NCBI GenBank assembly: GCA_009760855.2
Contig: WPIO01000007.1
Span: forward strand, 6,666,501-6,730,500
DNA length: 64,000 bases
Direction of reading: 5' to 3'
From: Cristatella mucedo
Taxonomy: Eukaryota > Bryozoa > Phylactolaemata > Cristatellidae
Shown here one piece after another: positions 6,501 to 63,650 of the stretch. Below the pieces are notes generated by a model, which searched no databases, was not told the DNA's origin, and was given only the letters and a program-made list of their open reading frames with translations. Made by a program: the position numbers and the translations under genes. The first letter of the stretch is position 1. The number at the start of each line of letters is the position of its first letter.

Positions 6501-9500
6501 GTCAAACAACACTGTGAAAATCGTGCTAGCCAGCAGACTTTGTGCCGACTTCTTTCACTACCGGACTACCGGGCGAGTCTCTGCAATGCTTCCTAGCCAA
6601 ACAGAACAGCATCGAGATGCAATGCTCCCTAGCCAAACAGAACAGCATCAAGGCATACATAAATAGCTTAATTGGGTGCTTAGGCCATCCAATAGCTGGG
6701 CTTGACCTCTGTATGGTTTATGAGACCTGCAGCACACATTAAGATTAAAGCAAGGGTCAGACCCAGACTAGGCACGATATGCAAAATGAGCCAGGAGAAC
6801 TTCTGACCACAAATCTGGCAGTCACATCTAGCTAATTGTTTATATGCCTACTCGACCACTCCAGTCATCATAGCAGCTGCTGCCACGGCTGCACACAGTG
6901 GCAATATTTTTTATTGTACCTTACTAGCTGGCCAGGTAACAGCAGGATGGTAACTTCGATCGGCCTCATAGAGCTCCACAGCAGTTGGTTCAATAGCAAT
7001 ATGCATAAGCATGCACTGGCTCGTTTTTACAGTCATGCATCATCAGCAGCAAGACTTGAAACTCGGACCAATTAAAAAAACATAAGCATGATCCTACAAC
7101 TTTCAGCTAGCTTTTAGCTATTCATTACGATTATGCATAGCTTCTGATTTTTCATTGTCGTCTGGAGTGCAACTTGGATCAACATCAAGGCGATCTCGAG
7201 GCATCAACAAGTCCCCCACATCATTAAAGAGCCAGCATCACTTTGTTGTGGACACCTAAATACAAGTCTTTGCAATAGCACACCGGATTTCCTTGCTAGT
7301 CACGATCAAGGGTTCTTCCTCGCTAACGACATGAACGAAATGACCCCAGGAAACATACAGGAAGAGCCTGGCATTTAAAGGCAAAAAACAGCACTCGTCT
7401 TTAGCAATGCCAATCAAGCATATCGACTTCAAGGTCCTGTCATTCACTTTGAATGTTGCCATTCTCTAGTTCCTGTGCATCAAATTCCTCACAAAATTCC
7501 CCAGGGATTCCATTGTACAACTTGCTCCAGTGACCCAGGTTGCTTATCATTTAGCTGTGGCTAACTAACCACATGTCTATAGAAGACAGTGCCATAGGTA
7601 CCACTGCTGCCAAAGCCTGGAACATGCTACTGACTGACATCGACAATATCCATCGATGACGACATTAAAAAAGGAAGCTAAAAGCCCACCTCTTGCTCAC
7701 AACATTTGCTCACTCTGTGCGATTGCTGCCATGAGCTTACACTCACTGGAATTGTACATGCTATTGCTAATCAGTTAACATGCTTGCTCTCCAGCATAGA
7801 TAAAAGTGCTAGATAGAGATTTAGTTCTCTAACGATGCTATATTAATATTTTAGCAGCATTCTGGTGGTCTTTCCAGATGATTTTCCCTAAAGTAACAGT
7901 GGGTGCACATCGGCAGGGCCTCGATTTGTGGAAATCCACATGTAAAAGCTGAAGAGCTCTGGTGAAGGCATAAGTTGCTCTACCAGCTATTGAGAGGCAC
8001 TGGGTTCACACATCGTTCTGACTCTCCCAGTCTGTGTGACTCTGGTGCCCCAAAAAGACCTTACGAGATAGCATTTTCAACACCAGATGATGTCCAAGCA
8101 GAGATGTCGCTTTTGGATCATGCAAAGCACCCTGATTGATCGACGGCCAGTAGTCTACTACTGATAACCAATCATCACGTAGGGACTGCTTGGCACGAGT
8201 CATCACATCCTACTAGTCACAACTGCAGAAATCGAAAGAGCTCGCAGCACCTATCCACACCTTTGATGACACAGAGGTGTCTATCCCTAGCGGTAGGCAA
8301 TGCTTCCACGTGAATGAATGCACCCGATTTAGCTTTCAAATGGTTGACATTCCTGCCTTTCTTTCCAATAAAGAGGCCACACATGGTAGTGGGCAGGTAG
8401 AAGTTGAAGACTTGCTCCACACCAACCTACGAAAATGCATGATAGACGCTTGCCACACAACCAAATGCATACTGAAACACCAAAAGCACGACAAACGAGC
8501 ACCGTAATCCCTTAACTGTCCACTACCTTCAAAGCTACTTCCTCACTATTTCTTGAGCTCACACAGAAACCTTAACAGATCGGACCTCCAAGGCAAAGGG
8601 CTGTCCGGTGACTTTTTAAACGACTACATCGCTCGGCCGATCACAAAGATGAGGTCGAGCGAGCACAAGACTAGCAACACGGTCGAAGGGGCATAGGCAG
8701 CTGAGTCAGCTCGGCTGCACTGCAAGCACTTAGTGGATCGTCACCGTGTAACTCAGAGCACAGGCTACTTGCTTACTGGTTCGTCACACTGCCAAGCACA
8801 TCTACGGCTAAACAAGTGTCCCTGTATTACCTTCACAGACTCACCATGGCGGCTCTGCCAAATACGATACCCTATATATTTTCAGCACAAGGCTTAACAT
8901 AATCATGGCAAGTAGAAAAAAAGGGGTGGCCACATGATTAAAAAGCACGAGACGATGACCAAAGGCACGAACCTTAAGCACCAAACAAATACAAGACATA
9001 CAAGGCCCTAATCTTGCTGGCAATCATAGAACGGCAGCATCCCGGCTATATCATAACAATAGCTAGAAATTCAAGTAGGAGCTGCTTCAATCCAGCACCT
9101 CTATTAACGTGCAGGGATATATCCGTGGCAACAAGCACACTTTCAAGCGAAAATATGCACCCGATTTGGCTTTTCGGTGAATGGCATTCATGCCTTCTTA
9201 AACCGAATGCAATTGCTTCATGGAAACAGCAGTACGACCATCAAACGTCTGCACTCCCCTATAAAGTTTGAGAATACTGAGTCGGCTGGATCGTGTGCGA
9301 TGGCCCAACTAGTTAGAGAAAATCAAGTACGAGCCAAAGTTAGGAACAGGTAGGCATACGGTTGCTCCCAACGTCTCGACAGCTCTATGTGGCAGCCCAA
9401 AGACATTGCCACTTTTGCCCACTGTAAGACCGCTATTTAATGAAGACACAAAGCGAATCGAGTCAAAGGCTGCAGGGGCATTGCCTTTGCACCCGCTTAT

Positions 9501-12500
9501 CAGAAAGAAGCAGGAATATCACAGTAAACTGAGCAAAACTGTCGTTCTGGGACACTGTCTCCGGATGCAGGATCCGATTTCTAGGCCATCATGCTATGTT
9601 TAGATGTTACTTTGTACAAGTCATGTGGACAATGAAGGCTCACATACACGCATGCACACGTCTGCAAAACGCCTTCTTGCTCAGGCAACATTGATGCGGT
9701 GAGAATGAGTTACCTGCTTTGTCTGATTGCTCTGGACGTTCGCTCGAAGGGCTTCAACGCTGTCGTGGGACTGCGGTAGTGGCGCCTGAGCGCTGCCTTC
9801 CGTGTCACAGCTCTGGCTCGAGTCTGCTGCAGCAGCAGGCTCAGCCCGACCATTCACTGTGCTGCTGCACGAAGCGTCCCCAGCACTGTTGCTGGCACAA
9901 TACAGCTCGTCGGTGGCCTCGAGGTGCTCGGTCACATTCTCACCCTGTGTGGGGGCAGTGCCAAGAGCAGCAGACTGCTCAGGTGAAATGTCGCCATCTG
10001 AACGGACGCTGACGGTCGAGTCGGGTGAATCTGTGACACTGCCAGAATGCTCTGCACTGCTGACCGTGTAGAAAGCCAAGACAATATTGTCGTCCGAAGT
10101 TGCAGCAGTAGCTCTGCAGGCACTGCTGTTGCTGCTGCTACTGACACTAGGAGCATGTGAAACTTCGTCTGTTGCTGAGCTATAATGACTGCCAGAAGCT
10201 GAAGCGTCTGCAGTGTTGACAGAATCACTGCTGCTGCTAACTACGGCAGTGCTTGGTGCCATGATAAATTCAAAGGAGCCATTGGTACTCAAGCTTCTTT
10301 CTTCCTCAGTTTCCAAAGAACAGACAGCAACAGCAGACGTAGCATCGTGTGCTTCCTCCACTTTCATAGCACCGGTGCCAAAATCAGATTCAGCAAAGAC
10401 GGCAGTCACTTGGTCAGAGCAAATCGAGATCACAAGTTCATCTTCAGCCGACTCGGTGGTAGCGCCCAAAGGAGGTTGGAATGCAACAGCAGATGCCACG
10501 ACGGCAGCAGCGTTGCAGCTGTGGACCGTTGCACTGCCATTCTTATTGCATTCGGGAGAGGCGCACAATGGATCAATGTAGACAATGCTATTGCTTGCGT
10601 CAAAAGCAATACTCTCGCATGACTCGAAACTTAGCATCTTGCCCTGAGCTGGAGGCAAGCACGTGGTCGTGATGCTGTTCTCCGAGGTAGTATTCTTGCA
10701 ATCAGGTGCATATGGCAAAAGGTTAGCGGGAACAGGCAAGGCAGAGGCACTGTCGTTGATATCGATTTGCATGGACTGAGCACCAACACTGAGGTGATCG
10801 TTTTCGGCAGCAATCGTCCCGACATAGCTATGGATCATGGCTGCCGTGTGACCATCAAGTGGAGCTACAGATGATAACACAGGTCCTTCTGATGCAGGAT
10901 GTTCCGAGGGTTTCAACTCCACTATCCCAGCATGATCCGACTGGAAAGACGTCACAGTCACCAGCTGGTCAGCATCTGTACCACGTTTTAAATTATTTGC
11001 TGCCGACTCTGCAAGCACACAGGATGACATAAGCAGACTATGGTCACCACTGCCAGATACTGATGCTTCGTGCACAGCCTGTTCACATGACGATGAGACA
11101 GTAACATATTCGTCTGGATGCTTGGGTACTTCTTGGCAGACGCCAGCACAATCACCTGCAGCAGTTGGTAGGATGAATAACTAAGAGTAGTTACTAAGAG
11201 TAAATATGAATGAACATAGCAGCACTAGGCAAACCAAATAGCCTGCGCTGGCAGTCGCATTAGGATGCAGACTCGGAGAACCAGGCTCACCTTCTGTCAA
11301 ACGGCTTTCACCACAAGAGTCGACAATCTCTTCTTGTGCAACCGAGTCTTGTGCCCCTGTAATATAGGAAGCACACTACCTGTCGACATATGATGACGAG
11401 ACGGTGCTTCGGTAAAACAAGTCTGAAGGTAGAGGGATACACATGGTTGCCACGGTATGTACCTTCAATAATGGTCCACTCGTTTCGAGAACTGAGCATG
11501 TCATACGATGAAAAAGACACAGAATCAGAAGCGGACGAATCCGGCACAGCTTTGACTGCACCTCCTGGATGCAAGCAGTAAGCATGCTCATGTTCAATAA
11601 CGGACGACTCGGTGGCCACATCTCTATCCATAGACTCCACGTTGTCAGCAGTAGAAAAGCACTTTTGTGCATGTGAAGAGGCCACGAGTTCCTCATGCAC
11701 GAAGCCCACAGTGTTGACGGCATCGTCGTCGGCTTTGTCGTCTGCTCCAGGCACCTGTACTAGAGATTCCTGAAAATGATCCGTCAGTTAGCTTGGTCTT
11801 AATTTAGACGTCTGCAACAGCACCAGCAGAAGCAGCACCAGGAGGGGGCAATGCAGGTAGTGCTGTGGAGTGCTAGAATTAATTAAGTGCAATACAAATG
11901 TCACGAGGACACCAAGCATGCTCATGTTACTATACACATCTGTCTTTACTTTCCATCCAACTTTCTTATCGGTACAATGCACTTAGTAATGCTCTTCTCA
12001 AACAATGTATAACAATGCAGCCACTGGCAGAAGGAGGGTATTGACAAATGACGGTTCCCCGGAGCTAGCTACCTAGGTATCTTGGTGTCATCAGCATCCA
12101 CCACCCATGCTCTTTTCTCCAGACTGGGCATAAGTGATGCTTATTGCCTACTCACCGAAGTCTGCACAACTGTCGTAAAAACATGCTTTCGGCTGCTGGT
12201 ATCATCACTTCCGGCAAGGCATGTGCTATTTGCAGGTGTACTTTCCTTACTATTCAGGGTACCTACAGAAACAGGCACGTGGTCAAGATCACAAGATTTA
12301 GTAAGCCAACTTTAGAAATCTAAAATAACCGTGACATTTGAAATGCTAACATCTTCGAGTCAACAAAATCTTAACTGAGAGTTGCTTACCATCAGACTGC
12401 TGTAGATCTCTGGCCACATGGTTCAGTGGTCTCACAGTCGCAGCTGGTCGGGCCGAATCAGTCGGTGCTGCAGCAGGCCTCTTCCTCCTCCGGCGGTGCT

Positions 12501-12576
12501 CCCACAGAGCAAAGCCTCCCACAAGCAGCACCCCGATCGATGCTGCTGCTATCACAGCCAATCTTGCAGTCAACAT
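2476..12576 (-). CDS. AKAP1: AKAP1-like mitochondrial A-kinase anchor protein (anchor, KH, Tudor)
   Basis: A multi-exon minus-strand gene. I assign exons 12576-12390, 12262-12156, 11769-11463, 11356-11291, 11155-9714, 8426-8261, 6408-6263, 3576-3387, 2998-2839 and 2692-2625. All have GT-AG borders and compatible phases. The protein starts with a hydrophobic segment (residues about 5-25) followed by RRRRKR, like the outer-mitochondrial-membrane anchor of AKAP1. A long Ser/Ala/acidic region follows, then a KH domain with GKKG at about 724-727 and a Tudor domain with GVWYRG and YIDYGGYE. Anchor plus KH plus Tudor is the AKAP1 (fly spoon) architecture. In that family the protein tethers PKA and mRNAs at mitochondria. 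About 946 residues are traced; if the last exon is read through to a stop at 2476 the total is 995 (human 903). I could not identify a PKA-binding helix or the true last exon. Confidence 0.9.
4946..5125 (-). mobile_element. SINE-A (tRNA-derived)
   Basis: Read on the minus strand it begins GAGCCGTAATGGCTCACTAG (A-box region), has a B-box-like GGTTCGAATCC and then a body with GATAGCC and AAGGCTCTTC before a TAAATCAGCTAGTATTT tail. The same structure recurs about ten times in this window. Confidence 0.85.
5740..5890 (-). mobile_element. SINE-B (tRNA-derived, LINE-1-like tail)
   Basis: On the minus strand it has a tRNA-like head (TGGTCCAGTGGTTAAGG as A box, GGGCTCGAGCCC as B box). The tail GAAGCGCC...AGAGATTAAGTTCTCT resembles the LINE-1 3' hairpin. 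Confidence 0.82.
6263..8426 (-). CDS. AKAP1: KH-domain exons of the AKAP1-like gene
   Basis: Exons 8426-8261 and 6408-6263. The first begins in phase 0 after the big Ser/Ala exon and encodes LPTTMCGLFIGKKGRNVNHL, then KAKSGAFIHVEALP and LCVIKG. The GxxG loop is GKKG and the spacing fits a type I KH fold. The second encodes GSAEAISKAVDAIVERFPEL, the last KH helix, and a linker ending in NRLQ. The KH domain is thus split by an intron inside the loop before its C-terminal helix. Human AKAP1 has the same order. In that family the KH domain binds nuclear-encoded mRNAs for mitochondrial proteins. Confidence 0.92.
7395..7850 (+). mobile_element. Degenerate LINE-1 3' fragment
   Basis: Patchy similarity to the LINE-1 tail: ATCGACTTCAAGGTCCTGTC near 7420, then a 3' end with AGATAGAGATTTAGTTCTCT near 7810. 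It is heavily decayed and lies in an intron of the AKAP1-like gene. Confidence 0.6.
9714..11155 (-). CDS. AKAP1: Large Ser/Ala-rich exon of the AKAP1-like gene
   Basis: A 1442-base exon that stays open throughout. It begins GDCAGVCQEVPKHPDEYVTV and is low in complexity, rich in Ser, Ala, Thr, Asp and Glu, with few basic residues. It is probably disordered. The corresponding region in vertebrate AKAP1 carries the PKA- and phosphatase-binding sites, but I cannot point to a clear amphipathic RII-binding helix here. The donor is CAG|GTAACT at 9714, and the next exon in phase 0 is the KH exon. Only the 5' half of this exon is conserved intact in the inverted copy. Confidence 0.88.
11291..12576 (-). 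CDS. AKAP1: N-terminal exons of the AKAP1-like gene
   Basis: Exon 1 (12576-12390) begins at the first ATG after the duplication border. It encodes MLTARLAVIAAASIGVLLVG followed by a tryptophan and a run of seven basic residues, a typical signal-anchor for the mitochondrial outer membrane. Exon 2 (12262-12156) encodes GTLNSKESTPANSTCLAG and what follows. Exon 3 (11769-11463) encodes ESLVQVPGADDKADDDAV and more. Exon 4 (11356-11291) encodes AQDSVAQEEIVDSCGESR. All four are repeated almost base for base in the right-hand copy, as are their introns. Confidence 0.88.
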
Positions 12577-12659
12577 GGCTGAATGAACTGGAAGAAAATT
12601 ACAATAGCACGATGGAGGATGTCGACATATAAGGTGTCAAGGCGACAAAACACACGTTT

Positions 12660-13281
12660 TAAACGTGCAATACATTTATTTGAGCACCCGCATTTAACTC
12701 GATCTCTGCGAACTAAAGGAGCGGTCTCCAAAAGATTTGAGACTCGTACAAGGTACAGGTAAACGATTAAAAACGCATATATGAGACAGACAGCAGTCAC
12801 TTCGGGTGACAGTACAAGGGGTCATAGTGCAGATAGCAAAAGCTGCAGGAATGCCATGGCCATCGTTAAAAGAAGCGTCTGGAGTTCACAGTCCAGTAAA
12901 GCTATAGAATTTTTTTATGTTCAACTCCAGCTATGAGAGTGCATGTTGCAGTAACACCTGGAAAATTAGCTAATTATTTCTCTCTTTCGGTCTTTTTTGG
13001 CATTCACCATTGCTGTAACACAATGTACCTACGACTAATAGATTGCTAGGGACTCTGCAGATAAGCCGTTATTCAGCAGTGTGTATCCTTGGAATTCAAA
13101 GCCGTCAATGAATTGCACAACTTAGAAACCATTGCCACTGTTGCCGTCCAAACACAAATATCTGAAAGAATCATTCTACTGCCCGAGGCTTCTGTGGCTG
13201 TTCATTCCACTGAGCCTGAGTTCTACTGAAAAGGTCTGCTACTGGTGTAGGCCAAACACTTCGCCTTAGCCGCCTGTCGTT
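12660..13281. other. Upstream region of the AKAP1-like gene
   Basis: No exon seen. A minus-strand LINE-1 remnant at about 12705-12770 (GGTCTCCAAAAGATTTGAG and flanks) sits close to the duplication border. The promoter of the AKAP1-like gene should lie here or just inside the duplicated block. Confidence 0.4.
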
Positions 13282-14545
13282 ATAATAATATTAATAATAA
13301 TACACTTGATAAAACACTCTCAGAGAACTCAATCTCTTTCTAGGAGCTTTACATTTGCTGCAAAGGAAACACGATCGAATGGTGAGTGGTATCAAGCTTG
13401 ATAAGCAATAAGAATTATGGTTAGGAGTGACATGCACAGAGTCAGCATGTAAGTGTGGTAAGTGGCAGCATGCAACAGTGTCAGCACGCATAAGCACGTA
13501 AAGGACGAATCACAGGACCCATTAAATGCTAAATAAGCACCTTCATCCATGTTTAAATCCATGTTTAAATAGGCAAGTTCTTTTTAAATGTGGCCAAATC
13601 AGGGGATGTCGTGAGGGAAGTCGGAGTGAATTCCAGGCTTTGGGAGCATACGAACTAAATGCACGATTTATAAAGGCTTTGAGGTTTGTACAAGGTATAG
13701 GCAAACAGATTTCGAAAAGCGGGCAGTTCGATGCTTGGCCTGGTGGGGAAGTAGATCTGACAGATAGGCTGGGGCCAAAGAATGAAGGGACCTAAAAGTG
13801 AGCGACAAAACCTTGAAGTCGACCCGTTGCTTGACTGGTAGCCAGTGCAAGTCGGAGAGAAGTGGTATGATGTGGCAACTTCGACGCTCACGACAGACAA
13901 GCCCAGCAGTCGTCTAACGAAAGGTCACTTTGGAACATGACACCTAGATTTCGTGCAGATTTAACAGGAGATATGATGGCAGAGCCGATTTTGAGCATCA
14001 GCCTTTCCAATTTCTGAATCACATTTTGTTTGCCTATAACTAGTAAATTAGTTTTATCATCGTTTAATTTAAGGAAGTTTGCTGCCATCAATGTGCGGAT
14101 GTCATCAATACATGCAGCAAGGGAGTTGAGAGAGCTCGAGGTGCTCGAAGGCTGGGAGGGATCAAAGCAAAGGTACAACTGAGTGTCATCCACATAGAAG
14201 TGAAAGCCTAGATCGTGCTTGGCAATCACGTCGGCAAGAGGAAGAGTATAAACCGTGAAAAGAACCGGACCAAGCACGGAGCCCTGAGGTACTCCATATT
14301 TCAGAGGTACCTCAGATGACCTTTGTCCATTCATACCAATACTCTGGAGTCTCCCACTGAGATAGGAACTGAACCATTGCAGAGCAGTGCCAGTGATGCT
14401 CAGGCGAGGTGAGAGGCGCTCAAGAAGAACTTGGTGATCGATAGTATCAAAAGCTCCCAAAAGATCGAGCAAAACAAGCAGAGATACTCTACCCATGTCC
14501 GCATTACTAAGTAGGTCGCTGTACACCCGAAGCAGCTCCAAAATC
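13282..14545 (-). mobile_element. LINE-1 copy with reverse transcriptase, internally deleted
   Basis: The minus-strand frame from 14541 gives reverse transcriptase motifs: LLVLLDLLGAFDTIDH, YGVPQGSVLGPVLFT, FHFYVDDTQLYL (catalytic F-x-DD) and FLKLNDDKTNLLVIG. After the segment LSLDD it jumps to the SCHIIPLLS-type C-terminal part and the 3' UTR, so the middle of the 3' half is deleted. It ends in an AAT/ATT tail at 13282-13300. The family belongs to the CR1/L2/Jockey group. Confidence 0.92.
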
Positions 14546-15324
14546 CTTCTGTGCAGATGAAATCGAGCGAATGGCTGGGCTACTGCAGTACAAGCTGCTC
14601 AGCACTTCTTTCGGACGCCTTTCAGCAAGCTGTTATCGAGCACATGAAGCATCCTACTTGCCTTAAAAGCTGAATTTAGACTTGCACCGACGAAGGCCAG
14701 CTCTATGCCACTTGTAGCAGCCCGCCCCCTAAGGGCTGACAAATTTCTCTTCTGACAATCTGAGTCCAAGGCGTGACGGATAGCTGCTGCACAGCATTGT
14801 CAATGGTGGGAAATATAGATCGCTTTCGCCAGCCGAACGTAGTGCAAGCCTCCTTGTAAAACCTCCTGGGATAACATACAATAGTTTGCCCTGGTTTAGC
14901 TCCTACTTCGGAGTTACCTAGAACAACCGCTCCGATGTGCAATATGAACTGACTATGTAGATACTTATGGGTCTAAGCCTTTTATAATCAGCTTTCTCGA
15001 CATGCTCTCACTTCAGTGCTCCAAGACTGTGACTCCCGAGCCAGGAAAGCAGACAGTAGCGCTTGGTAAAGAACCTCCTCTCCCTGAAGCCATTTTTCTT
15101 CTGCTAATTTCTTCCTCTGCTAATGTGCGACTCAGTCACAACGAGAGCCCCTTCGTGCTGAGCTTCGCTCGGTGAACTGTTCGAAAATGTTGCCCAATGT
15201 AAACGTTTGACACCACTTTTGTCCGACCGTCCACAAATATTGCATTGCACCAAACAAGGATTCTTCAAAAAGTACTTCACTAGCCTGGCAGTGTGCACAG
15301 GGTTGCCATCTTATCGCTCGGTTG
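14546..15324. other. Unassigned intergenic sequence
   Basis: Short open frames occur on the minus strand at 14942-14703 and 15298-15104. None matches a family I know and none has clear splice context. Confidence 0.4.
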
Positions 15325-15410
15325 AAGCGGTGATGATAACCATAAAGGCTCTACTGCCGCTATATAAATGAGGTAAATGAGGTAAATCAGGTAAGGTTTT
15401 ATCTAGCTAC
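15325..15410 (+). mobile_element. SINE-A tail fragment
   Basis: Matches the SINE-A 3' part only: GATAACCATAAAGGCTCTAC followed by a TAAATCAGGTAAGGTTTT-type end. It has a small duplication of AATGAGGTA. Confidence 0.6.
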
Positions 15411-16452
15411 AAAGTGTAACGACCTCCAAGCAGAGTATTGGAGCTTTGAAATCCAACTTGGCTGACCATCAACAACTTGAGCACAGTAATTTTTGAAAAA
15501 CAATGACGCGAACGGCATCAATAAAAAGCAAGCCACCCAGTATATAGACGAAGATCGAGAAAATCGAACCAACCAGTGCACGAGAAAACAGCCTGCAGCT
15601 GTCGAGGAGAGCGGGAGACGCAACGGGCAATTACTAAACGCAGTCCGTACGTGCGAGGATGCAAGCGAATCTGCTCAAAAGCCGCACGGAGTGGCGAGTA
15701 TCCAGCGCCTTTTGGAGACGAGAAGCGAAAATGGATTGCATTTGGTGGACTTACTAGGTGCCGGCAGCGACACCGTGCGGTCGCAAAGGCTCAGTTGGCT
15801 GCCACATCTCCAACAACCGGCTAGACGCACTTGCAGAACGCTCAGCCTTACCTCGCGGGCGAGCACGAGCACAGACTGTCCTGCCGCGCAGCTAGGAGAA
15901 CCACGAACAGCGGCACGAGGCGCACGGCACCTCGCAAAACACGTGCCCGTACAAGGAATAGCCGGCGACGACGCGGCTAGTTCGCATCTGTCCTCGCTCT
16001 CTAAAATAATCGCAAAAAAGCATTAAAAAACCCTATGAAAAACCTTAAAATATGAAAAATATCTAATCGGACTACGAATGGCCACGTACTTATTTACCTT
16101 TTGCTTCCGTTGATTGCTGGAACTGCCAATAAGGCCAAGGACGCGACGAGGTCATAGTGTAGCCCGTCCTCGGTTGCGCGATAGCGCCGTCTTTGTGTTC
16201 AGCTCGTCGTTCGTCTCTGTGCTCTGTGGATCTACCCACAGCGGAGCGTGCTGTTTCAGAGTTATTCGAAGCGTTTACTCATAAGCCAGAGGTCAGGAGC
16301 CGCCGCCGTCACCTTACTTCCGTGGAAGCTCTGCTCTACGATTAGACCGCCGCCGCTGGCGATATGCGCCGACCTCGCGACAGCGGCTAATATCGCGTGG
16401 CAGCGATACAAATCACAGCAGGGCCTAGCTTACGACGCTCCTATCGTTTGAA
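15411..16452 (+). promoter_or_regulatory. Upstream region and 5' UTR of the ULK gene
   Basis: The last 300 bases (about 16150-16452) are GC- and CpG-rich and end just before the ULK start codon. I did not find a clear TATA box. A minus-strand ATG at about 16000, with a donor-like GAGGTAAGG near 15850, could mark a divergent transcript, but I could not extend it. Confidence 0.4.
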
Positions 16453-40704
<24,252 letters not shown>

Positions 40705-41782
40705 TAGTTGTGAGAGCTGTTGCTGTTGTGAGCTTATTGTGTGTTCATTATTTTCGTGATTCTTGCTGTAGCAGATTTCAGATTGATCATCTTTGTTTGT
40801 AGATGAGTGCGAAGTCGAAAAACGGCTATACTATTTACAGAATCAGTGCTACGTGCTGGCATAGGGAGAGGAATCTATCCGATCGAAACATCATTGTATA
40901 TTATTATGGAAAAACAAAAAAGCCTAGTCCCGAAAGTGCCAATTAGCTGTAAACAGTCTGGAAAAGCATACTCAATGGTCAATGAGCCTTCTATTGATTG
41001 GGACTGTTGGTACAGCTTCAAGCCCTATGGATTTGTTTTGTTTTAGAAAGTTGACTAATCCAATTGCTCATAGCCGTTGCATTATGGAAAATTATGTACG
41101 AGCATGTGTGTGTTGCATGTGTTTCCCTGAGGCAATATATGGTTCATGTGTTAGTGCAGTTGCCACATTTTTTCGTATTATCTTGATTTGATAACGGCCT
41201 TGAGGGTGTGAATACATCCAATAATACCGTTGCTGGCCTGCACGTTTTTCGGCCGTCCATGTGGTGAGGTCTAACTAATTGCTGCGTATCGCAGTTGTAT
41301 CTGTGCCCTGTTTGGCTTAAAGCTTAGCTTGAGCTGCTGCTGCTGCTGCTAGTGCCTGCTACAGGCTGTCGGTGCTATTTTCAAGTCACCACGCCTGTAG
41401 ATGGCATATGATGTGGTCGGAGCCTGTGGTATGACCTGTTGTGGTAGATTAATTTTTGCATGCGCTCACAGTTGATTGGTATAGCAGGTACACTCTATTT
41501 GAGAACATGCAACAGTCGTCCGTGCATCAGTTACTGGGGTGCTCTATTTTTGCTTGTAGCAGTGGTCAGCTGATGCAAGCATTGCCGTTGTTCTTTTTTA
41601 AGATCTCAAATGCACAAATATGAAATGCCAATAAAGATATATTGAATTAACGAGTCACTTGATGACTTTGCCTGCGCATGTACCAAAAAAGCCTCGGCTG
41701 GACCCTGATTTTGCTTAGTCGTTTTTGGCACCACATATCGGAATGGGCGTATATGTATATGATAATTAATAAGAGCATTAAT
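40705..41782 (+). other. ULK 3' UTR and downstream sequence
   Basis: No exon after the ULK stop. A candidate polyadenylation signal AATAAA lies at 41630-41635, about 0.9 kb downstream of the stop. Earlier signals may exist that I did not recognise. Confidence 0.45.
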
Positions 41783-41928
41783 TTGATAATACATTAATCG
41801 TTTGTATAGCGCCCTAAAAGAACTGAGTCTCTACCTAGGCTCTTCACATATGCCACCAGGCTGGTGCCCGATACCTCGGTCGTCAAAGGCGAGCACCTTT
41901 ACCCCTGAGCTAAACCAGAGCAGCACAT
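41783..41928 (-). mobile_element. SINE-B
   Basis: Plus-strand reading TTGTATAGCGCCCTAAAAGA and AGTCTCTACCTAGGCTCTTC is the LINE-like tail. CCCCTGAGCTAAACCAGAG is the complement of the A-box head. Confidence 0.78.
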
Positions 41929-42349
41929 CATCGATCAAAGGCGTTTTTTGAAGCTATTGAGAATAGCAATCGATCTAATGGATGGTGCCTTGTCTTGGTT
42001 CGAGTCCTACCAGACCAACAACTCCATTTCGTATCTATTAATGATTAGGTATCAGCTAGCAGACGTTCTCTAGCTAATTTGCTTGTCTGTTCCTATGCAG
42101 CGTCTTCTCTCTCTAGAAAGAGTATTCGTCCCCCCCCCCCCCGCCCCGCAGCTTTTGCCTGCACTGCTACATTGGCACCGTCGATCAACTGTACTTATCA
42201 TTCAGACCTATCATTCAAACCCTCCGAGCCGGCTGTATGGGGTCTCAGCGAGTCGACTCCTGTCGTGCTCACGTAAGGAGCTGGCTCTCAGTCAACTTTC
42301 TGTCAATGCGCACTGCTTGATGATAAGAGGTAATGTAGTTATAATTATA

Positions 42350-43430
42350 ATATAGATCGGTTGAGTAGTGTATCGTCGAAAAGAACTTTATCTAGGCGCT
42401 TCAAAACTTGCTTCAAGAGAGTCATTGCCCGAGGGTCATTGATTTGCATGGTATAAAGCGTGCAAAATTTAACAAGAATCCTGCTTAGGCCCACATGCTA
42501 AGGCAACAATGAAATTCGTGGCCGCAGGTTAGTGAGACCTCCGGATAGACATGAATTGAATCATGCACAGGTGCAATCACGCAAAGCGGAGGCGGACAAA
42601 TAAAACACAAATTCATTGGACTGAAGGGAAAGCTGACCAGTACAGATGTGTCTTAACGGAGACTTGAATGAAAGGTCGCTGTAAGTAGTGACCGTAGCCG
42701 GAAGCAAGTTTTAGCCTTTTATTGCGTGCGAGCTGAAGGCTCGATCACAATAAGACTTCGATTGTGTGCTGGAATGCAAGATGACTAGATGCCGATGTGT
42801 GCGTGGTGGTACATTGGCACACTAGAGGAGCAAGAAGGTTGGGTTGTAAGCTGGTACTGGTAAGTGAAGCTTCTCTTTGGCCAAAGAGGGGTCTTGACGT
42901 CGATTCGATGCTTCACAGTGAAGAGCCAGTGAAGCTCAAGCAGAAGTTGCGTGATATTACACGCAATTACACCGTTGGCGACAGACCAGACGAGCTACTG
43001 AGTTGTGCATCAGTTGCAGCCTATTAAGGACACGGGCCGGGAGTCCTACTGTGTCACAAATTATTTCCATGTGATTTAGTTTTGGCTTCTCGTGCTCTCT
43101 TGTTAAAGCACACCCCGATTTGGGCAATGTTCCCCAACTGAAAGTAGGCTGGCTTGACATTAAAGCCAACATGCTCATACGAGAGCAAGTCGTTTTGGAA
43201 CAAGCCCAGATTTTAGGCAGACGTCACGGTAGTAATGCTAGATAAACTAATCCTGGGGGTGTGGTCTTCTAACTGTAGGGTGACGCAAGGCTTTCTAATG
43301 ATAATTTGGTTGATCTTACCATCGTTAAGCTTCAGGAAGTTAGTGGACATCTAATTGAGAATGCCGTCGATGCAGCCTGCAAGACACTCCAGTCTTGGCG
43401 GAGTAAAAGTGTACCCTATACAAACTATAT
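42350..43430 (-). mobile_element. Diverged LINE fragment (LINE-1-related)
   Basis: The minus-strand frame near 43000-43100 gives RLQLMHNSVARLVCRQR. Further upstream the complement of AAGCTTCAGGAAGTTAGTGG marks the FLKLN motif. The 3' end has GAACTTTATCTAGGCGCTTC. It is too diverged to call the same subfamily as the other LINE-1 copies. Confidence 0.65.
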
Positions 43431-45369
43431 TCAGGATGCGTCAGTGGCTGGCTACTCCTACTTTGTGAGATGTCACGTGCTGATCCATTCGTGCCCCATT
43501 CTCCGACCAGCCGGATCTTTTGGTGCTTTGCACTTCTCTGTGGACGAGGTCATGTACCCTGACCCTCTGACTAAGCAGCTGGAGCTCATTCGACTGAAGA
43601 GGGACGAGCAGCTGAAGTTTACTGTGACAGTGTGCTGGCGTTGTGTAGTTACACTTCCACTCAAGTTTCAACTGATCTGCAGTGGCACCACTTTTGATCC
43701 CAAGCCACTCAAGAAACACATCATAGTAAACCTTGAAAGATGCTAGCTTGTATGTTTCGGTCTCCACACACCACTTGCGCAGAGTCGGGCTGTGGTTCTC
43801 ATGTCCCTAGTATGCATACTGCTGGCAGTCCTCTTGCGGTCCGGCCTGGCGGCCCCCTAGTTATTTATTGATGGATCCAGCCTAGTTGAGTTGTAGCGGT
43901 TTTCTTCCCCTTCATTATAGAGGTACTTTGACTTACCCCAACTAACGAGTTTTTGAGGCGTGAGCCGTCTCTCGACTGCTTTTTGCTTGACTTGAGAGCT
44001 AACCGTTATTGTGCTTGATGTGCTTTTCGAATTTTGAAGTATCAAGTGGGCGTGGCCGCTGTGCCCACCCCGACCAGGCTGGGTGGGCGTGGTTTCCTCA
44101 GGCCTAGTGTGCCTTCTTGACCTCCTGAAATGGCCTAGAAGTCCGAAAAGTTTGCCGACATCTGTGTGCTAGACGAATTGGGGTGGCTCTGGATCAATCA
44201 GGAGACAAACTAAAATTTTGACTCTGACCCCCCAAGGCCTGCAATGGCTTGGCTCTTTCATGCCCACCTGGAACCTGGCAGCAGGCTAGTGGTTAGCTCG
44301 GCTCAGGATAACAAATTAGCTTGCCCTTTCTTTACTTAAAAAAGGAGCCTAACTTTTAAAGGGGGTGACCCTTGACCTTGACCAGGCCTTTCGACCACAG
44401 CGGAGGCTGAAGGTAGGCATGCTCTTTCTCTCTTCTAGGTCGCCTTACATGGGGACTAGCTGCAATTTGGCAGCCCCTCACATTCCCCCAGCCCTTCCCC
44501 GCACTACCGACGTATCCTATTGGCCGTTCTTTGCCACTAATCTTGTTAGTTTCTCACTTCCATAACTTAACCACACTCGGCCATGCTTCTTCACTACGGT
44601 CATTTACCACCAATTCAATGCCACTTACTTGTTTGAATGTCCTGACTCAGCTGAGCTACTCACCTTGTATGTGTGTGTGGCAAAGTGGTGAGCGACCGGA
44701 TGCGTCCCAGAAATCCCATTTAGCCTTGACTGGCTATAGAAAACCGCCTGTGCAAGAATCTCACTTACTAATTGCGGCTATATGGTATACATGGTATACT
44801 ATATGGTATACAGGTATATGGATGCATGCTCGTGCATACAAGCATATACATACAAGATAGATATATGCACAAATTCACACATCTATTCATAATGTAGATA
44901 CACACACGTACATATAGGTATGTACATGCCGTCAGTGCTGGCCCAAAAAAGTTCATGCACCCGGCTAAACTCATTACTTTTGAGTGCCAATGCGTTCCCT
45001 GTAAACTGCACAAACAAATTATGAAATACTAGTACCTGTTTTCGATCGGAGAAATCATAAGGAAACTCATTAGCTTCAGGCTCCATGGTAACGCCAATGT
45101 TTTTTACTGGACTCTTTTTACTGGAGACGAAAATTACCTCTGGCAGGACATTCGAAGTTACCTCCCCACTATGACAACTAGGTCGGGTAAATATTGACAG
45201 CCTGATGTAGCGAATCGCACGGGAATGTCTGAATGCAATTGCCAGCCCTCTGGGTACCACGTGGATATGCCAACTTGGCTTTGGCTGTTTTCGGCGGTCG
45301 GCAGTGCTCTACCTCCGATGATCCGGTTTTCCAAGCTCTCAAAAGTGCCTGAACGACGCAGCCCTCACG
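43431..45369. other. Mostly unassigned intergenic sequence
   Basis: On the minus strand about 45170-45028 is open (segment PVKNIGVTMEPEANEFPYDF) and ends at AACAG|GTACTAG. A good acceptor (TTTGTGCAG) is followed by TTTACAGGGAACGCATTGGC. This could be a pair of exons of an unknown gene. An open frame on the plus strand at about 43431-43746 has no recognised similarity. Confidence 0.3.
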
Positions 45370-46205
45370 TTGAAAATCGCGCAATTTGGACGAGGCCTGG
45401 TATTGCCGCAGCAACAGCGAGGTACAATTTGGATAAACTGGAACAGACCGGAACGATGAGTCGACAGATCGGGAGCGTTAGACGTCTTTGCTCGACGATA
45501 CGGGAGGACAGGAAAAGGAGATAGTAGGCGGCAATGCATATATAGCCGGTACAGCAGTTTGATGAAAATTAAGAAAGCGTTGGAGTTCTCCGGGATTACT
45601 TGTCAGCGAAAGAACGATTAGGAAGAGGCTCGGCGAGTTACGAGGTACGAGTTCCGACATTGGTAAAGACGGAGCTGCTACATAGCGGTATTCGCAAACG
45701 CAGCAGCTTGCAGCAGCTTGCCTTTGCCCTTAAATACCGGCGCTAGGACCCGGCTGAGGGGACCAAGGTAATCTGGACTGACGAGTCCCCAAAGTTCCCC
45801 TCGCTCTTTGCTACCAAAGTCTCGGGACAGTCAGCGAGTGTGGAGAAAATAAGGAGGAAACGTATCTATATGTTTGTCTCCAAAAGACGCTGGACTGCGG
45901 CTGCGGTAGGGGTAGTATTGTGGGGCAGCGCGAGCTGGTGTAGGGAGCTTGCACCTGGTTGGTGATAGCGGACCCAGAGCGCCATTTATATATCTTTGAT
46001 AATGTTGGCATCCCGTCAGCGCATAGCGTGCATGGTCTGGATGGTATTTGGTAGCTGGACAGTGATCCTAAGCATACTGCTGGAGCATTGTAAAATATTG
46101 TTATTACTAGGCTTAGAATAGTTACCGGGTCATGGAGTAGGTTAAGTCAGAGTCCAGATTTGAACCCCATTGAACATCTGTGGCTGGAGTAGGAGCATAG
46201 AAAAC
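45370..46205 (+). pseudogene. Tc1/mariner-type transposase, dead
   Basis: Pieces of a Tc1-like transposase in order. A helix-turn-helix-like part includes LDKLEQTGTMSRQIGS. IWTDESPKFP holds the first catalytic Asp. DSDPKHTAG matches the NDPKHTA block. LSQSPDLNPIEHLWLE holds the second catalytic region. Frames change between these blocks and a stop follows the last one, so the copy is inactive. I did not find terminal inverted repeats. A LINE-1 3' end follows immediately. Confidence 0.85.
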
Positions 46206-46209
46206 GTGA

Positions 46210-46448
46210 TCCAGTCAAGTCCGTGTGATTCCTACTTTGTGTGCTCATGAGTGCTGACACTGTGCCTACTGCCATTAACCATATTTGCATGCTGACCCTG
46301 TGTATGCCACCTCTAGCCATGTTCTGCTTGTTGTTCATTGAGCATGCTGCTGCTAACCATCCTATCATGCTTCCTTTACAGCAAATGTAAAGTGCCACGA
46401 AAGAGGTTGAGTGCTCTGAGGGCGCTATAACAAATGAATTATTACTAT
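46210..46448 (+). mobile_element. LINE-1 3' UTR fragment
   Basis: GCTGACACTGTGCCTACTGC, GCAAATGTAAAGTGCCACGA and AGAGGTTGAGTGCTCTGAGG are the LINE-1 3' UTR and hairpin. It ends in an ATTATTACTATAATTA tail. Confidence 0.88.
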
Positions 46449-46515
46449 AATTATTTCCCTTCACAACCCAGGTCGTGGTTTCGAGTCCTGCTGAAGGCAA
46501 TCCTTTTTTCAACTG
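46449..46515 (+). mobile_element. SINE-A fragment
   Basis: CACAACCCAGGTCGTGG and TTTCGAGTCCTGCTGAAGGC show the B-box region only, squeezed between LINE-1 and LINE-2 pieces. Confidence 0.65.
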
Positions 46516-46945
46516 GGGATGTAAAGTAATGTAATGTATCTCCGTCTGTAACTCCACAAAGTCATAAAGACCATGTGGGTGTTACGCAGGAGAGTTTTGT
46601 ATAGCGCACTCACAGCCTTAAGCGGCTTTCGGTACGCATTCGGTAGCCAACAGACTTCGTCTAAAGCAACAAAGAGAAAGTGGGAAGCATAGCACAGTCA
46701 GTAGAACAGTTGAGGTAGTGAGTAGCATGGAAGTAGCAGCTCAGGACCGCTGAAAAGGATGTGCCATAGTCGGCAGTAGGAGAGTAGTTGTCGTTGCGTA
46801 AGAATTGTGGAAGCGAGTTCCACAGTCTAGGACCTGCAGAGCTAAAGCTTCTGTCGCCAACTGTCTTTAAGCGGAGGAATGGGACAACGAATTTATTGTC
46901 CACACAGGACCTGAGGGCACAAACAGGCTGAAACTGATATGCTGC
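46516..46945 (-). mobile_element. LINE-2 3' fragment
   Basis: The minus-strand frame gives DNKFVVPFLRLKTVGDRSFS and RLWNSLPQFLRNDNYSP, then the 3' UTR and the TACATTACA end at 46516. Confidence 0.88.
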
Positions 46946-47487
46946 TCACTTTTGCCACGTTACCTGCTGGGTTGTCTGTTATGCACGTGCTGGTGACCGA
47001 TTATGTACTGCAAGCAGTTGGCACTTTGAGTGAGCTAGAGAAAGTTATCTGCACAACAGGCCCTTGAGCCCAGGCTTACTTGCTTGCATCTTCAGCTACA
47101 CTTAAAAGCCTTGTTGCATGACTCTTGCCTGACCTGTTAAGATGTTAAGGTGCCTGTTAAGAGCGGCTCGCGTTGGAGCTCACCGAAGCTTTGCGGGTCA
47201 AGTCCCAGATCTGGACGTTTCTCTGCAGATTATGGCTACTTTAGGGAAACAGATGCTCCAATGGGTGGGCTGCTGTGCAAAGGCTAAGGTCTCGCCCTCT
47301 AGCTAAATAGATGGCCACAGTGTTCAAAGAACTGTCACCCTTCCATATCTGATTAGATACGAAATGTCACTGATCAGCCAGTGTTGATCCGGTGCAGAAC
47401 TACCTTTCCCTCCTCTGCAGAGTGGCTTTGGGAGAACGTCAAGTTTTGGCATCGGCCAGCATTTTACCGGTGTGTATGCTCTTTTTA
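46946..47487. other. Unassigned sequence before the right duplication arm
   Basis: No gene or element recognised. It is not homologous to the sequence upstream of the left AKAP1-like copy. Confidence 0.4.
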
Positions 47488-47570
47488 AAACGTGTGTTTT
47501 GTCACCTTGACACCTTATATGTCGACATCCTCCATCGTGCTATTGTTATTTTCTTCCAGTTCATTCAGCC

Positions 47571-49816
47571 ATGTTGACTGCAAGATTGGCTGTGATAGCA
47601 GCAGCATCGATCGGGGTGCTGCTTGTGGGAGGCTTTGCTCTGTGGGAGCACCGCCGGAGGAGGAAGAGGCCTGCTGCAGCACCGACTGATTCGGCCCGAC
47701 CAGCTGCGACTGTGAGACCACTGAACCATGTGGCCAGAGATCTACAGCAGTCTGATGGTAAGCAACTCTCAGTTAAGATTTTGTTGACTCGAAGATGTTA
47801 GCATTTCAAATGTCACGGTTATTTTAGATTTCTAAAGTTGGCTTACTAAATCTTGTGATCTTGACCACGTGCCTGTTTCTGTAGGTACCCTGAATAGTAA
47901 GGAAAGTACACCTGCAAATAGCACATGCCTTGCCGGAAGTGATGATACCAGCAGCCGAAAGCATGTTTTTACGACAGTTGTGCAGACTTCGGTGAGTAGG
48001 CAATAAGCATCACTTATGCCCAGTCTGGAGAAAAGAGCATGGGTGGTGGATGCTCATGACACCAAGATACCTAGGTAGCTAGCTCCGGGGAACCGTCATT
48101 TGTCAATACCCTCCTTCTGCCAGTGGCTGCATTGTTATACATTGTTTGAGAAGAGCATTACTAAGTGCATTGTACCGATAAGAAAGTTGGATGGAAAGTA
48201 AAGACAGATGTGTATAGTAACATGAGCATGCTTGGTGTCCTCGTGACATTTGTATTGCACTTAATTAATTCTAGCACTCCACAGCACTACCTGCATTGCC
48301 CCCTCCTGGTGCTGCTTCTGCTGGTGCTGTTGCAGACGTCTAAATTAAGACCAAGCTAACTGACGGATCATTTTCAGGAATCTCTAGTACAGGTGCCTGG
48401 AGCAGACGACAAAGCCGACGACGATGCCGTCAACACTGTGGGCTTCGTGCATGAGGAACTCGTGGCCTCTTCACATGCACAAAAGTGCTTTTCTACTGCT
48501 GACAACGTGGAGTCTATGGATAGAGATGTGGCCACCGAGTCGTCCGTTATTGAACATGAGCATGCTTACTGCTTGCATCCAGGAGGTGCAGTCAAAGCTG
48601 TGCCGGATTCGTCCGCTTCTGATTCTGTGTCTTTTTCATCGTATGACATGCTCAGTTCTCGAAACGAGTGGACCATTATTGAAGGTACATACCGTGGCAA
48701 CCATGTGTATCCCTCTACCTTCAGACTTGTTTTTACCGAAGCACCGTCTCGTCATCATATGTCGACAGGTAGTGTGCTTCCTATATTACAGGGGCACAAG
48801 ACTCGGTTGCACAAGAAGAGATTGTCGACTCTTGTGGTGAAAGCCGTTTGACAGAAGGTGAGCCTGGTTCTCCGAGTCTGCATCCTAATGCGACTGCCAG
48901 CGCAGGCTATTTGGTTTGCCTAGTGCTGCTATGTTCATTCATATTTACTCTTAGTAACTACTCTTAGTTATTCATCCTACCAACTGCTGCAGGTGATTGT
49001 GCTGGCGTCTGCCAAGAAGTACCCAAGCATCCAGACGAATATGTTACTGTCTCATCGTCATGTGAACAGGCTGTGCACGAAGCATCAGTATCTGGCAGTG
49101 GTGACCATAGTCTGCTTATGTCATCCTGTGTGCTTGCAGAGTCGGCAGCAAATAATTTAAAACGTGGTACAGATGCTGACCAGCTGGTGACTGTGACGTC
49201 TTTCCAGTCGGATCATGCTGGGATAGTGGAGTTGAAACCCTCGGAACATCCTGCATCAGAAGGACCTGTGTTATCATCTGTAGCTCCACTTGATGGTCAC
49301 ACGGCAGCCATGATCCATAGCTATGTCGGGACGATTGCTGCCGAAAACGATCACCTCAGTGTTGGTGCTCAGTCCATGCAAATCGATATCAACGACAGTG
49401 CCTCTGCCTTGCCTGTTCCCGCTAACCTTTTGCCATATGCACCTGATTGCAAGAATACTACCTCGGAGAACAGCATCACGACCACGTGCTTGCCTCCAGC
49501 TCAGGGCAAGATGCTAAGTTTCGAGTCATGCGAGAGTATTGCTTTTGACGCAAGCAATAGCATTGTCTACATTGATCCATTGTGCGCCTCTCCCGAATGC
49601 AATAAGAATGGCAGTGCAACGGTCCACAGCAGCAATGCTGTTGCCGATGCAGCAGTAACAAGCGCTGAGGACCAGAGAGCCAGTAGCACCTCTGCTGCTG
49701 CCGTCTTGGCAATGGCTGTTGCATCCCAACCTCCTTTGGGTGCTACGACCGAATCGGCTGATGATGACCTTCTGATCTCGGTTTGTGCTGACCAACCAAA
49801 AGCAGGCAATGCTTAA
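47571..49816 (+). pseudogene. Truncated paralogue of the AKAP1-like gene (anchor half only)
   Basis: Exons 47571-47757, 47885-47991, 48378-48684, 48792-48857 and 48993-49816 mirror the left copy with the same splice sites. They are open for 496 codons and then meet TAA in the middle of the big exon. After the stop the homologous exon continues to about 50475 with frameshifts relative to the left copy. There is no KH or Tudor exon downstream, so any product would be a membrane anchor with a short acidic tail. Compared with the left copy it has about 25 extra codons (near ADAAVTSAEDQRASSTSAA) after the near-identical part. It may be a pseudogene, or it may encode a short dominant-type anchor. 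The sequence alone cannot decide. Confidence 0.85.
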
Positions 49817-50509
49817 TCTGATGGTGCCACCGGTGCCGTGGAAGTAGAGAAAGCAGACGATGCTGCATCTGCTGTTGCTGTCTGTGCTTTGGAAAATGAG
49901 GAAAGAAGGAGCTTGTATGCCAATCATGGCACCAAGTGCTGCCGTGGTTAGCAGCAGCAGTGATTCAATCACCACTGCAGACGCTTCAGCTTCTGGCAGT
50001 CATTAAAGCTCAGCGAAAGACGAGGCTTCACTTGCTCTTAGTGTCAGTAGCAGCAGCAGCACCAGTGCCTGCAGAGCTACTGCTGCAACTTCGGACGACA
50101 GCATTGTCTTGGCTTTCTACACGGACAGCAGTGCAGAACATTCTGGCCGTGTCACAAGATTCACCCGACTCGACCGTCAGCGTCCGTTCAGATGGCGACA
50201 TTTCACCTGAGCAGTCTGCTGCTTTTGGCACAGCCTCCACACAGTGTGAGCACGTGACCGGGCACTGCCAGGGCACCGACGAGTTGTATTTCGCGGCAGC
50301 CCTGCTGGGGAAGCTCAAGCACTATGAATGGTCGTGCTGTGCCTGCTGCTGCTGCTGCTGTAGCTGTACTCAAGCCAGAGCTGTGACAGGGAAGGCAGCG
50401 GTCAGGTGCCCTCCTGCAGCCCCACGACAGCACAACAGCCCTGCAAGCGGTCGCCCAGACCAATCAGACTAAGCAGGTAACTCCTATTTCTCCTTAAAAT
50501 TAAATTAAA

Positions 50510-50655
50510 TTAAATTATAGCTGATTTAACAGCCTCCCTTTGTATAGCGACAGAAGAGCCTTTAAGGCTATCACCACCGCTTGCAGTGGCGATAAAGGAT
50601 CGCCCACCGTAGGATTAAAACCCACGACATCGGGACCGAGGTCGTCCTTGCCGGG
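50510..50655 (-). mobile_element. SINE-A inserted in the right duplication arm
   Basis: Plus-strand reading AGCTGATTTAACAGCCTCCC, AGAAGAGCCTTTAAGGCTAT and GATAAAGGATCGCCCACCG. It is preceded by ATTAAATTAAATTAAATTA. Only the right arm has it. Confidence 0.85.
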
Positions 50656-50920
50656 TCAATGTGGCCTGAGTGAGAAGGCGTTTTGCAGGCGTATGCCTTC
50701 CTGGGTGTGCCTGAATTGCCCATACGACTTGTACATAGTAACATCCAAACATTGCATGGTGGCTCGTTATTGGATCTTATTGCATTTGGAGATTAGGTGG
50801 CAGAACGTCGTCTGCACAGTCTGCTCCACTGGTCCTGCACCTTTCTCATAAATTGATGCAAAGGCAATGCAGGCGCAGCCTCTGACTCGATTCGTTTTAC
50901 ATAAATGGTGCGCATTGGCT

Positions 50921-52040
50921 TATTCTACCAGGTATAGCATAAAGTGGTCTGCATCGAGAATTTAATAATAGCCATTTGACGATTGGTAGGATATGGGGAC
51001 TGTCCTGCTGCTCAACCAGTACATGTTATACCGTAGGTGCCATTTACTTGGATACTTGACCAATGTTGGTTCTTTTGTTTTATAGCCATTGCGATTAGTA
51101 GGTCTTTGGTTAGTGAAACCATTTACGATCTGCAAATCTGGTTCTCATCCCACTCTGATGAAGTATGTGCATAGCTCATAGCCGATGAAATTAAGAGCGC
51201 TCTAGGTGTGAACGTGTTTTGTCGACGCCATCCTTGGGAGCACAGCCTTGAGTATCTTGCTCGAGCCTGCCTCTCAATGGGGGGAGGGGCGAGACATTCG
51301 TCATATGCGCACCACTGCCTGCTGTTCGTGCAGCCTTGCAGCAGGGACGGTAGGCACTGAGAGAACTTTGCCATTCACCTCCCGTGCACCGCTTTGCCAC
51401 CAGCGGCCACGTCGGCAAAGCACGCCTGCCCACCGGATTCGAGCGTAGCAGCACGCAGCAGGCACGCACGCAGGCTCTAACGCTCCCTCGTTGCTTTGCT
51501 CCGGCGCCACTTTCTAGCCACAGTGCGGCACTGCTCCACGACCGCCCGAAGGCCTCCGGCAGACCGCAAGGCCTGCGCTGTGATGCCAGACTCTTGACGG
51601 TGAAAGCACGACAGCCAGATAGCCGCAGTGGCAAGAACGCGAGTCTCGATGCAGCGCCAGGTGTTCAGATTTTCGATCAGATTCGTCACGTGCACATGTA
51701 GCACGTGTAGTGCCCCTACCCGAGTTACCAAGCGACCCTGAGTTATCCACTTACTGAGGGTTTGGTGGACATACAGCTGTGGAGTGGTATCCATAGAAAT
51801 GTAGAACTGCAGGAGCACTGTATCACTTTTTAGTTTATGTTATTGCAGTGTAAGAGAATAGTAAATTGCAATATTTGATCAACATTATGTGTCGAGAGGC
51901 CGCTAGCACCCAGCATTTGCATTTTGCTAGGCATGCTGACAATTGATCAAGACAACTCCGAAGAAAGGAATCTTATGTAACCCGAGTTCACACCCCCCTA
52001 TTCATACACGATTCAGCTAGGAGCCTTAAAGCTACGTCAT
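50921..52040. other. Intergenic, with a possible minus-strand exon
   Basis: At about 51818-51477 on the minus strand a frame reads LIENLNTWRCIETRVLATAA, then ALRSAGGLRAVVEQC. Its composition looks protein-like (armadillo-like helix feel), but I recognise no family and cannot fix splice sites. The segment around 51190-51710 is GC-rich. Confidence 0.3.

Positions 52041-62712: not shown

Positions 62713-63650
<938 letters not shown>

Follow-up and report, generated by a model that had tools for sequence, protein, structure and literature searches.

We identified an inverted pair of gene copies in the bryozoan Cristatella mucedo in which the 5' region of an AKAP1-type gene (arm A) and a partial pseudogene of it (arm B) are nearly identical over ~2.1 kb and then diverge abruptly within a single exon. 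The pair lies in a window of 64,000 nucleotides, the whole stretch of DNA that was analysed (C665:6666501-6730500, from a 12.8-Mb contig in an assembly of 572 Mb and 688 contigs), and window positions are used throughout. The best explanation, and in our view a probable one, is an old partial inverted duplication followed by a recent A-to-B gene conversion of ~2.1 kb. A sharp change in identity inside otherwise continuous paralog homology is the pattern expected for interlocus gene conversion. A first-pass annotation of the sequence had proposed an old duplication with later conversion of the 5' 2.1 kb, and the present analysis supports that proposal: the head introns of the two arms are nearly as alike as the exons, the join is in register, and the best candidates scored in the assembly were the two arms alone. 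To it we add the likely direction of copying, the identification of arm B as a partial pseudogene, and the placement of the tract between a 57-base alignment gap and the end of shared homology. Gene conversion itself is a well-known process, and this case is ordinary in kind and unusually legible.

Inverted arms and the step in identity

Arm A (minus strand, 12663 to ~9434) and arm B (plus strand, 47484 to ~50914) are inverted copies of 3.2 kb and 3.4 kb, respectively, that face each other across a separation of 34.8 kb. Self-BLAST resolved their homology into a head, where 47484-49646 matches 12663-10502 (minus) at 99.7% over 2163 columns, and a tail, where 49694-50483 matches 10511-9707 at 82%. 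Base-level alignment refined this division. The arm A head (10518-12663, minus strand), the presumed donor, comprises what appears to be the 3' end of an upstream intron, exons 1-4, and the start of exon 5, while the arm B head (47484-49630, plus strand) is the presumed recipient. The two heads differ by three substitutions in 2146 aligned columns (A 12643, 12600, and 12092) and by one 1-base intronic indel in a T run at A 11418, and the longest run identical between the arms is 900 bases. The arm A tail (9434-10517, minus strand) holds the remainder of exon 5 and the start of the next intron, and it differs at 194 of 1054 aligned columns from the arm B tail (49631-50914, plus strand), which consists of a diverged pseudo-exon 5 and intron with an insertion resembling a short interspersed nuclear element (SINE). 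Fisher's test of these head and tail counts gives 3e-94. Local alignment of the arm tails ends at A 9450 / B 50898.

The nearly identical inverted arms that the first-pass annotation described are therefore real, as is the sharp step that it placed within one exon. Identity along the aligned arms, a comparison it had recommended, is not uniform: a changepoint at A 10517/B 49631 brings a gain of 223 log units (3/2146 against 203/1068 columns, in an alignment carried down to A 9420), and the maximum gain under 2000 permutations was 10.3.

Within a wider background region of 204 kb, which served for self-match and probe searches, the two arms form the sole self-match of at least 95% identity over at least 500 bases and are both the longest and the most alike pair. 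The runners-up (498 bases at 96.0% and 411 bases at 97.6%) both lie in repeat elements. Searches of the whole assembly, in which the best candidates were scored, returned two matches for a head query (10550-12663) and two for a B-tail query (49650-50490), in each case the two arms themselves, and no third copy or better donor was found among these best candidates. Two independent duplications joined by chance are an unlikely source of such a structure, as the join preserves the register of the old paralogy.

The AKAP1-type gene and its partial pseudogene

Splice borders modelled by eye on GT-AG signals place five exons on the minus strand of arm A: exon 1 (12390-12587), which carries the start codon, exon 2 (12156-12262), bounded by GT-AG and open in frame, exon 3 (11463-11769), exon 4 (11291-11356), and exon 5 (9714-11155). 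Joined, they form an open frame that extends for 703 codons from the start. The 5' edge of exon 1 resembles a splice acceptor by eye, and both arms thus seem to start in the intron just upstream of the start-codon exon. Downstream on the same strand, an exon encoding a KH domain (8235-8396; PF00013, E 1.3e-08, above cut-off) was also matched in a tblastn search with an AKAP1 probe (E 4e-07). It is followed by a Tudor region (2638-2990) that matches PF00567 above cut-off at 2990-2838 (E 1.4e-08) and below it at 2700-2638 (E 0.01). The KH and Tudor domains were located with the probe and then checked with Pfam. Arm A is an AKAP1-type gene, since KH and then Tudor lie downstream on the same strand as in AKAP1, an A-kinase anchoring protein. 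AKAP1 also has an N-terminal membrane or mitochondrial anchor and a helix that binds the PKA regulatory subunit; a hydrophobic stretch at the N terminus of arm A, judged by eye, may correspond to the anchor. Exon 3 of arm A (minus strand) also matches BTBD8_C below threshold (PF15363, E 0.00029, 21.5 bits against a cut-off of 27), and the short stretch matched resembles, again by eye, a WxxI LC3-interacting motif as well.

Unlike AKAP1, arm B has no detected KH or Tudor domain. In the 204-kb region, the AKAP1 probe found nothing better than E 0.2 for arm B, and its matches on that side are at chance level (51284-51400, E 7.3; 130496-130621, E 0.22). Only the first five exons were found in arm B, where they share the splice signals of arm A and form a truncated reading frame of 496 codons (47571-49816, plus strand). 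Codons 1-435 are identical to arm A in DNA, and the first coding difference falls at codon 436. Read on in the start frame, arm B meets its first stop after 496 codons and has 7 stops in all, and its tail exon contains six frame-changing gaps (17, 1, 1, 7, 10, and 1 bases). The SINE-like insertion (50497-50645, plus strand) sits in the arm B intron and is missing from arm A; it has 13 further matches in the 204 kb, some of them partial, at 74-91% identity. Arm B is a partial pseudogene. Retroposition, which would make it a processed pseudogene, was rejected because arm B retains four modelled introns. The homology, substitutions, frameshifts, and SINE reported for the tail at first pass are accordingly all present, while the roughly 25 added codons amount to 57 bases, or 19 codons. 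Similarly, the small introns reported in the near-identical part exist and number four rather than three.

The direction of copying, judged indirectly, is most likely from A to B. Arm A is open for 703 codons, arm B stops after 496, and the tail differences are unbiased with respect to codon position (37/261, 37/258, and 37/259), as expected if B decays while A is held. Had B been the donor, the head of A would have received its open frame from decaying DNA. Within the tail, 111 of 778 exon columns and 83 of 276 intron columns differ, and this approximately two-fold lower divergence of the exon also fits a decaying B compared with a constrained A. Crude site counts for the tail exon give a proportion of synonymous differences of 0.18 (33/182) and of nonsynonymous differences of 0.13 (76/589). 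In the head, by comparison, none of 1316 exon columns and three of 830 noncoding columns differ. Set against the 83/276 of the tail intron, the noncoding count suggests that the most recent copying has an age on the order of 1% of that of the duplication, a rough figure that, with three differences, may be off a few-fold either way. The copying could still be polymorphic in a species of ordinary heterozygosity.

Probable gene conversion and its alternatives

We hypothesize that, long ago, a partial inverted duplication placed the 5' part of the AKAP1-type gene, with its first five exons and the beginning of the following intron, ~35 kb from its parent. Arm B, lacking the KH and Tudor exons, would then have decayed as a pseudogene through frame-changing gaps, stops, and the SINE-like insertion. 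Long afterward, DNA repair in arm B may have taken arm A as its template, presumably by strand invasion as is general for gene conversion, and written ~2.1 kb of A sequence into B. The resulting tract would be bounded by the end of shared homology (A 12663) on the inner side and by a 57-base heterology (A 10513, in exon 5) on the outer side.

This outer boundary is an alignment gap, where an in-frame segment of 57 bases present in arm B (49636-49692, plus strand) is missing from arm A. The step in identity sits 4-5 bases from the gap, and the heterology is a plausible stop of copying. An imperfect 10-base direct repeat, found by eye in the alignment, flanks the segment and suggests that arm A may have lost these bases rather than arm B having gained them.

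On the outer side of the tract, unconverted homology is present and intron homology at ~70% is still plain, so that old homology inward of the tract should also have shown. Unconverted homology on the inner side could amount to no more than 64 bases, 2 of which differ, and no homology was found inward of A 12663/B 47484: the flank score of 11.0 does not exceed that of shuffled sequence (50 shuffles, mean 11.3, maximum 14), and a sensitive BLAST comparison of 5.3 kb with 5.5 kb of the inner flanks, both read in the direction of the gene, detected a single repeat match (75.5% over 233 columns), all other matches having E values of 0.098 or more. The 2 differences in the inner 64 bases compare with 1 in the other 2082 head columns (Fisher p 0.0026, for an edge chosen post hoc). 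By these two bases, the data weakly suggest that the inner edge is older than the core and hence that arm B had an earlier head. Either conversion reached the end of homology, or one-ended copying was closed by end joining.

Several considerations weigh against a single plain conversion. It does not predict that the tract should coincide with the end of homology at its inner side. Moreover, the recipient, judging by the tail, would have been ~70-86% like the donor unless the head had been kept alike earlier, and one review proposes ~92% identity for efficient conversion (PMC3966225). A paper on human inversions describes mammalian tracts as rarely exceeding 1 kb, against 2.1 kb here, and cites far longer ones as well; Drosophila tracts are given there as ~0.5 kb on average (PMC3961182). 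Heterology of 1.2% is noted, in a mosquito study, to reduce templated integration (PMC8893643). Relative to this literature, the tract is long and the match of the recipient is poor unless earlier conversion kept the head alike.

Such earlier conversion is the substance of the strongest alternative, concerted evolution, in which the head was converted repeatedly since the duplication, the step is a retreating edge, and the tail escaped once its homology had been interrupted by the 57-base gap and the SINE. It avoids the need to convert an 80% recipient, and an inner edge of intermediate divergence (2/64) agrees with it. A segment of the tail exon (A 10149-9966) likewise hints at an older conversion tract, as it differs at 7 of 184 columns against 103 of 589 elsewhere in the tail exon. 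No permutation of 300 reached this contrast in a first test and 4 of 3000 did so in a second; however, merging differences within 3 bases of each other weakens the signal, changing the best segment and allowing 247 of 3000 permutations to reach it. The uniform head core, in turn, is explained equally by one event. We therefore consider repeated conversion possible but doubtful; it overlaps with the conversion reading preferred above, and for this reason the probabilities that we attach to the several readings sum past one.

A second alternative, which we hold to be unlikely, is that arm B had an old tail only, or had lost its head, so that the new head is an insertion and not an overwrite. A broken tail end would have invaded arm A, been extended by 2.1 kb of copied sequence to beyond the start codon through break-induced or template-switch synthesis, and been closed by end joining to unrelated DNA. 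The abrupt loss of homology where the tract ends on its inner side, with no old trace beyond it, favors this route, which would also account for the long tract. Furthermore, the inner flank of arm A past its first 45 bases consists largely of repeat pieces that recur in the genome (among the best 40 of 1360 candidates, one of which is the flank itself). Conversely, the inner 64-base edge hints at an age greater than that of the core, although the hint comes from two bases and a post hoc edge, and no target-site or junction signature was seen by eye, no systematic search having been made for one. Were one-ended copying nonetheless correct, a decayed fragment would have regrown an intact 5' gene part, an improbable outcome that, along with inversions of the DNA between the arms, might be segregating even now. 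As a separate observation, pieces related to long interspersed nuclear elements (LINEs) recur in the window, and one begins 46 bases from the inner end of arm A.

An assembly artefact, by which an assembler or polisher wrongly placed the head of arm B, is very unlikely. The very high identity would agree with it, and a T4/T5 homopolymer length, a common type of error, accounts for one of the few differences. However, the register of the old paralogy is kept across the join, each arm has differences of its own, and both lie deep in the 12.8-Mb contig; an assembler may swap copies at shared sequence and should not create such sequence from 80% identity. Finally, purifying selection on the arm B head as a functional truncated AKAP1 would suit its open frame of 496 codons and its splice signals, which are as in A, yet it can be dismissed for practical purposes because the head introns are nearly as alike as the exons (inner edge aside, 1 of 754 intron bases differs), which is not expected from selection over 2.1 kb.

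Known systems and the interval between the arms

Among human loci, the IDS2 pseudogene is inverted relative to IDS, and the inverted arms at FLNA/EMD are kept alike by conversion. Both arrangements resemble the one described here. IDS2, as portrayed in one report, is a partial pseudogene ~20 kb from its parent, with which it shares a few exons and introns and recombines (PMC3115838). In C. mucedo, by contrast, it is apparently the pseudogene that received sequence, 35 kb separate the two copies, and a portion of the arm has escaped and decayed. FLNA/EMD likewise has near-identical inverted arms around a gene-bearing interval, and it figures in a paper among human inverted-repeat inversions, of which 11 of 16 bear signs of recurrence (PMC3961182). 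The arms described here differ in being near-identical over 2.1 kb only and in continuing into diverged sequence. Conversion between opposite-strand neighbors is also described, in an account of Caenorhabditis elegans, for the hsp16-48 modules and an hsp70 pair (PMC3966223); the hsp16 arms are given there as 416 bp apart and the hsp70 pair as adjacent, whereas the C. mucedo arms are separated by 35 kb and include a pseudogene. In yeast, according to a further study, a replication barrier near inverted repeats yields both conversions and inversions (PMC8748988). A literature search combining AKAP1, pseudogene, and gene conversion returned Y-chromosome titles only.

Set beside these systems, the C. 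mucedo arms provide a natural record of a copying tract that reveals the likely donor, recipient, and direction as well as both of its ends. This long tract connects inverted arms that are only ~82% alike outside the copied part, and it ends beside a 57-base heterology. The case also calls for caution, as gene calls and paralog ages can mislead at this locus; an annotation might, for example, present the arm B head as another intact AKAP1 start.

The interval between the arms contains a coding stretch for a ULK1/2-type kinase (29372-29659, plus strand), whose best PDB match is ULK1 (E 4.7e-43, from query residues 41-136 of window:29252-29788:+). A further coding stretch of this kinase gene lies between the arms at 26759-27421 (plus strand). 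Inversion of the 35-kb interval could use the near-identical inverted arms as its substrate, and such recombination would reverse the ULK gene and give AKAP1 a different upstream sequence.

An Rfam scan of the window returned nothing at gathering thresholds. We identified a LINE remnant with a reverse transcriptase domain at 13888-14598 (minus strand; RVT_1, E 1e-18) and a similar remnant, recognized by eye, at 24607-25277 (minus strand). Two long, near-perfect TG/CA arrays of ~64 units each occupy 34742-34870 and 62715-62841.

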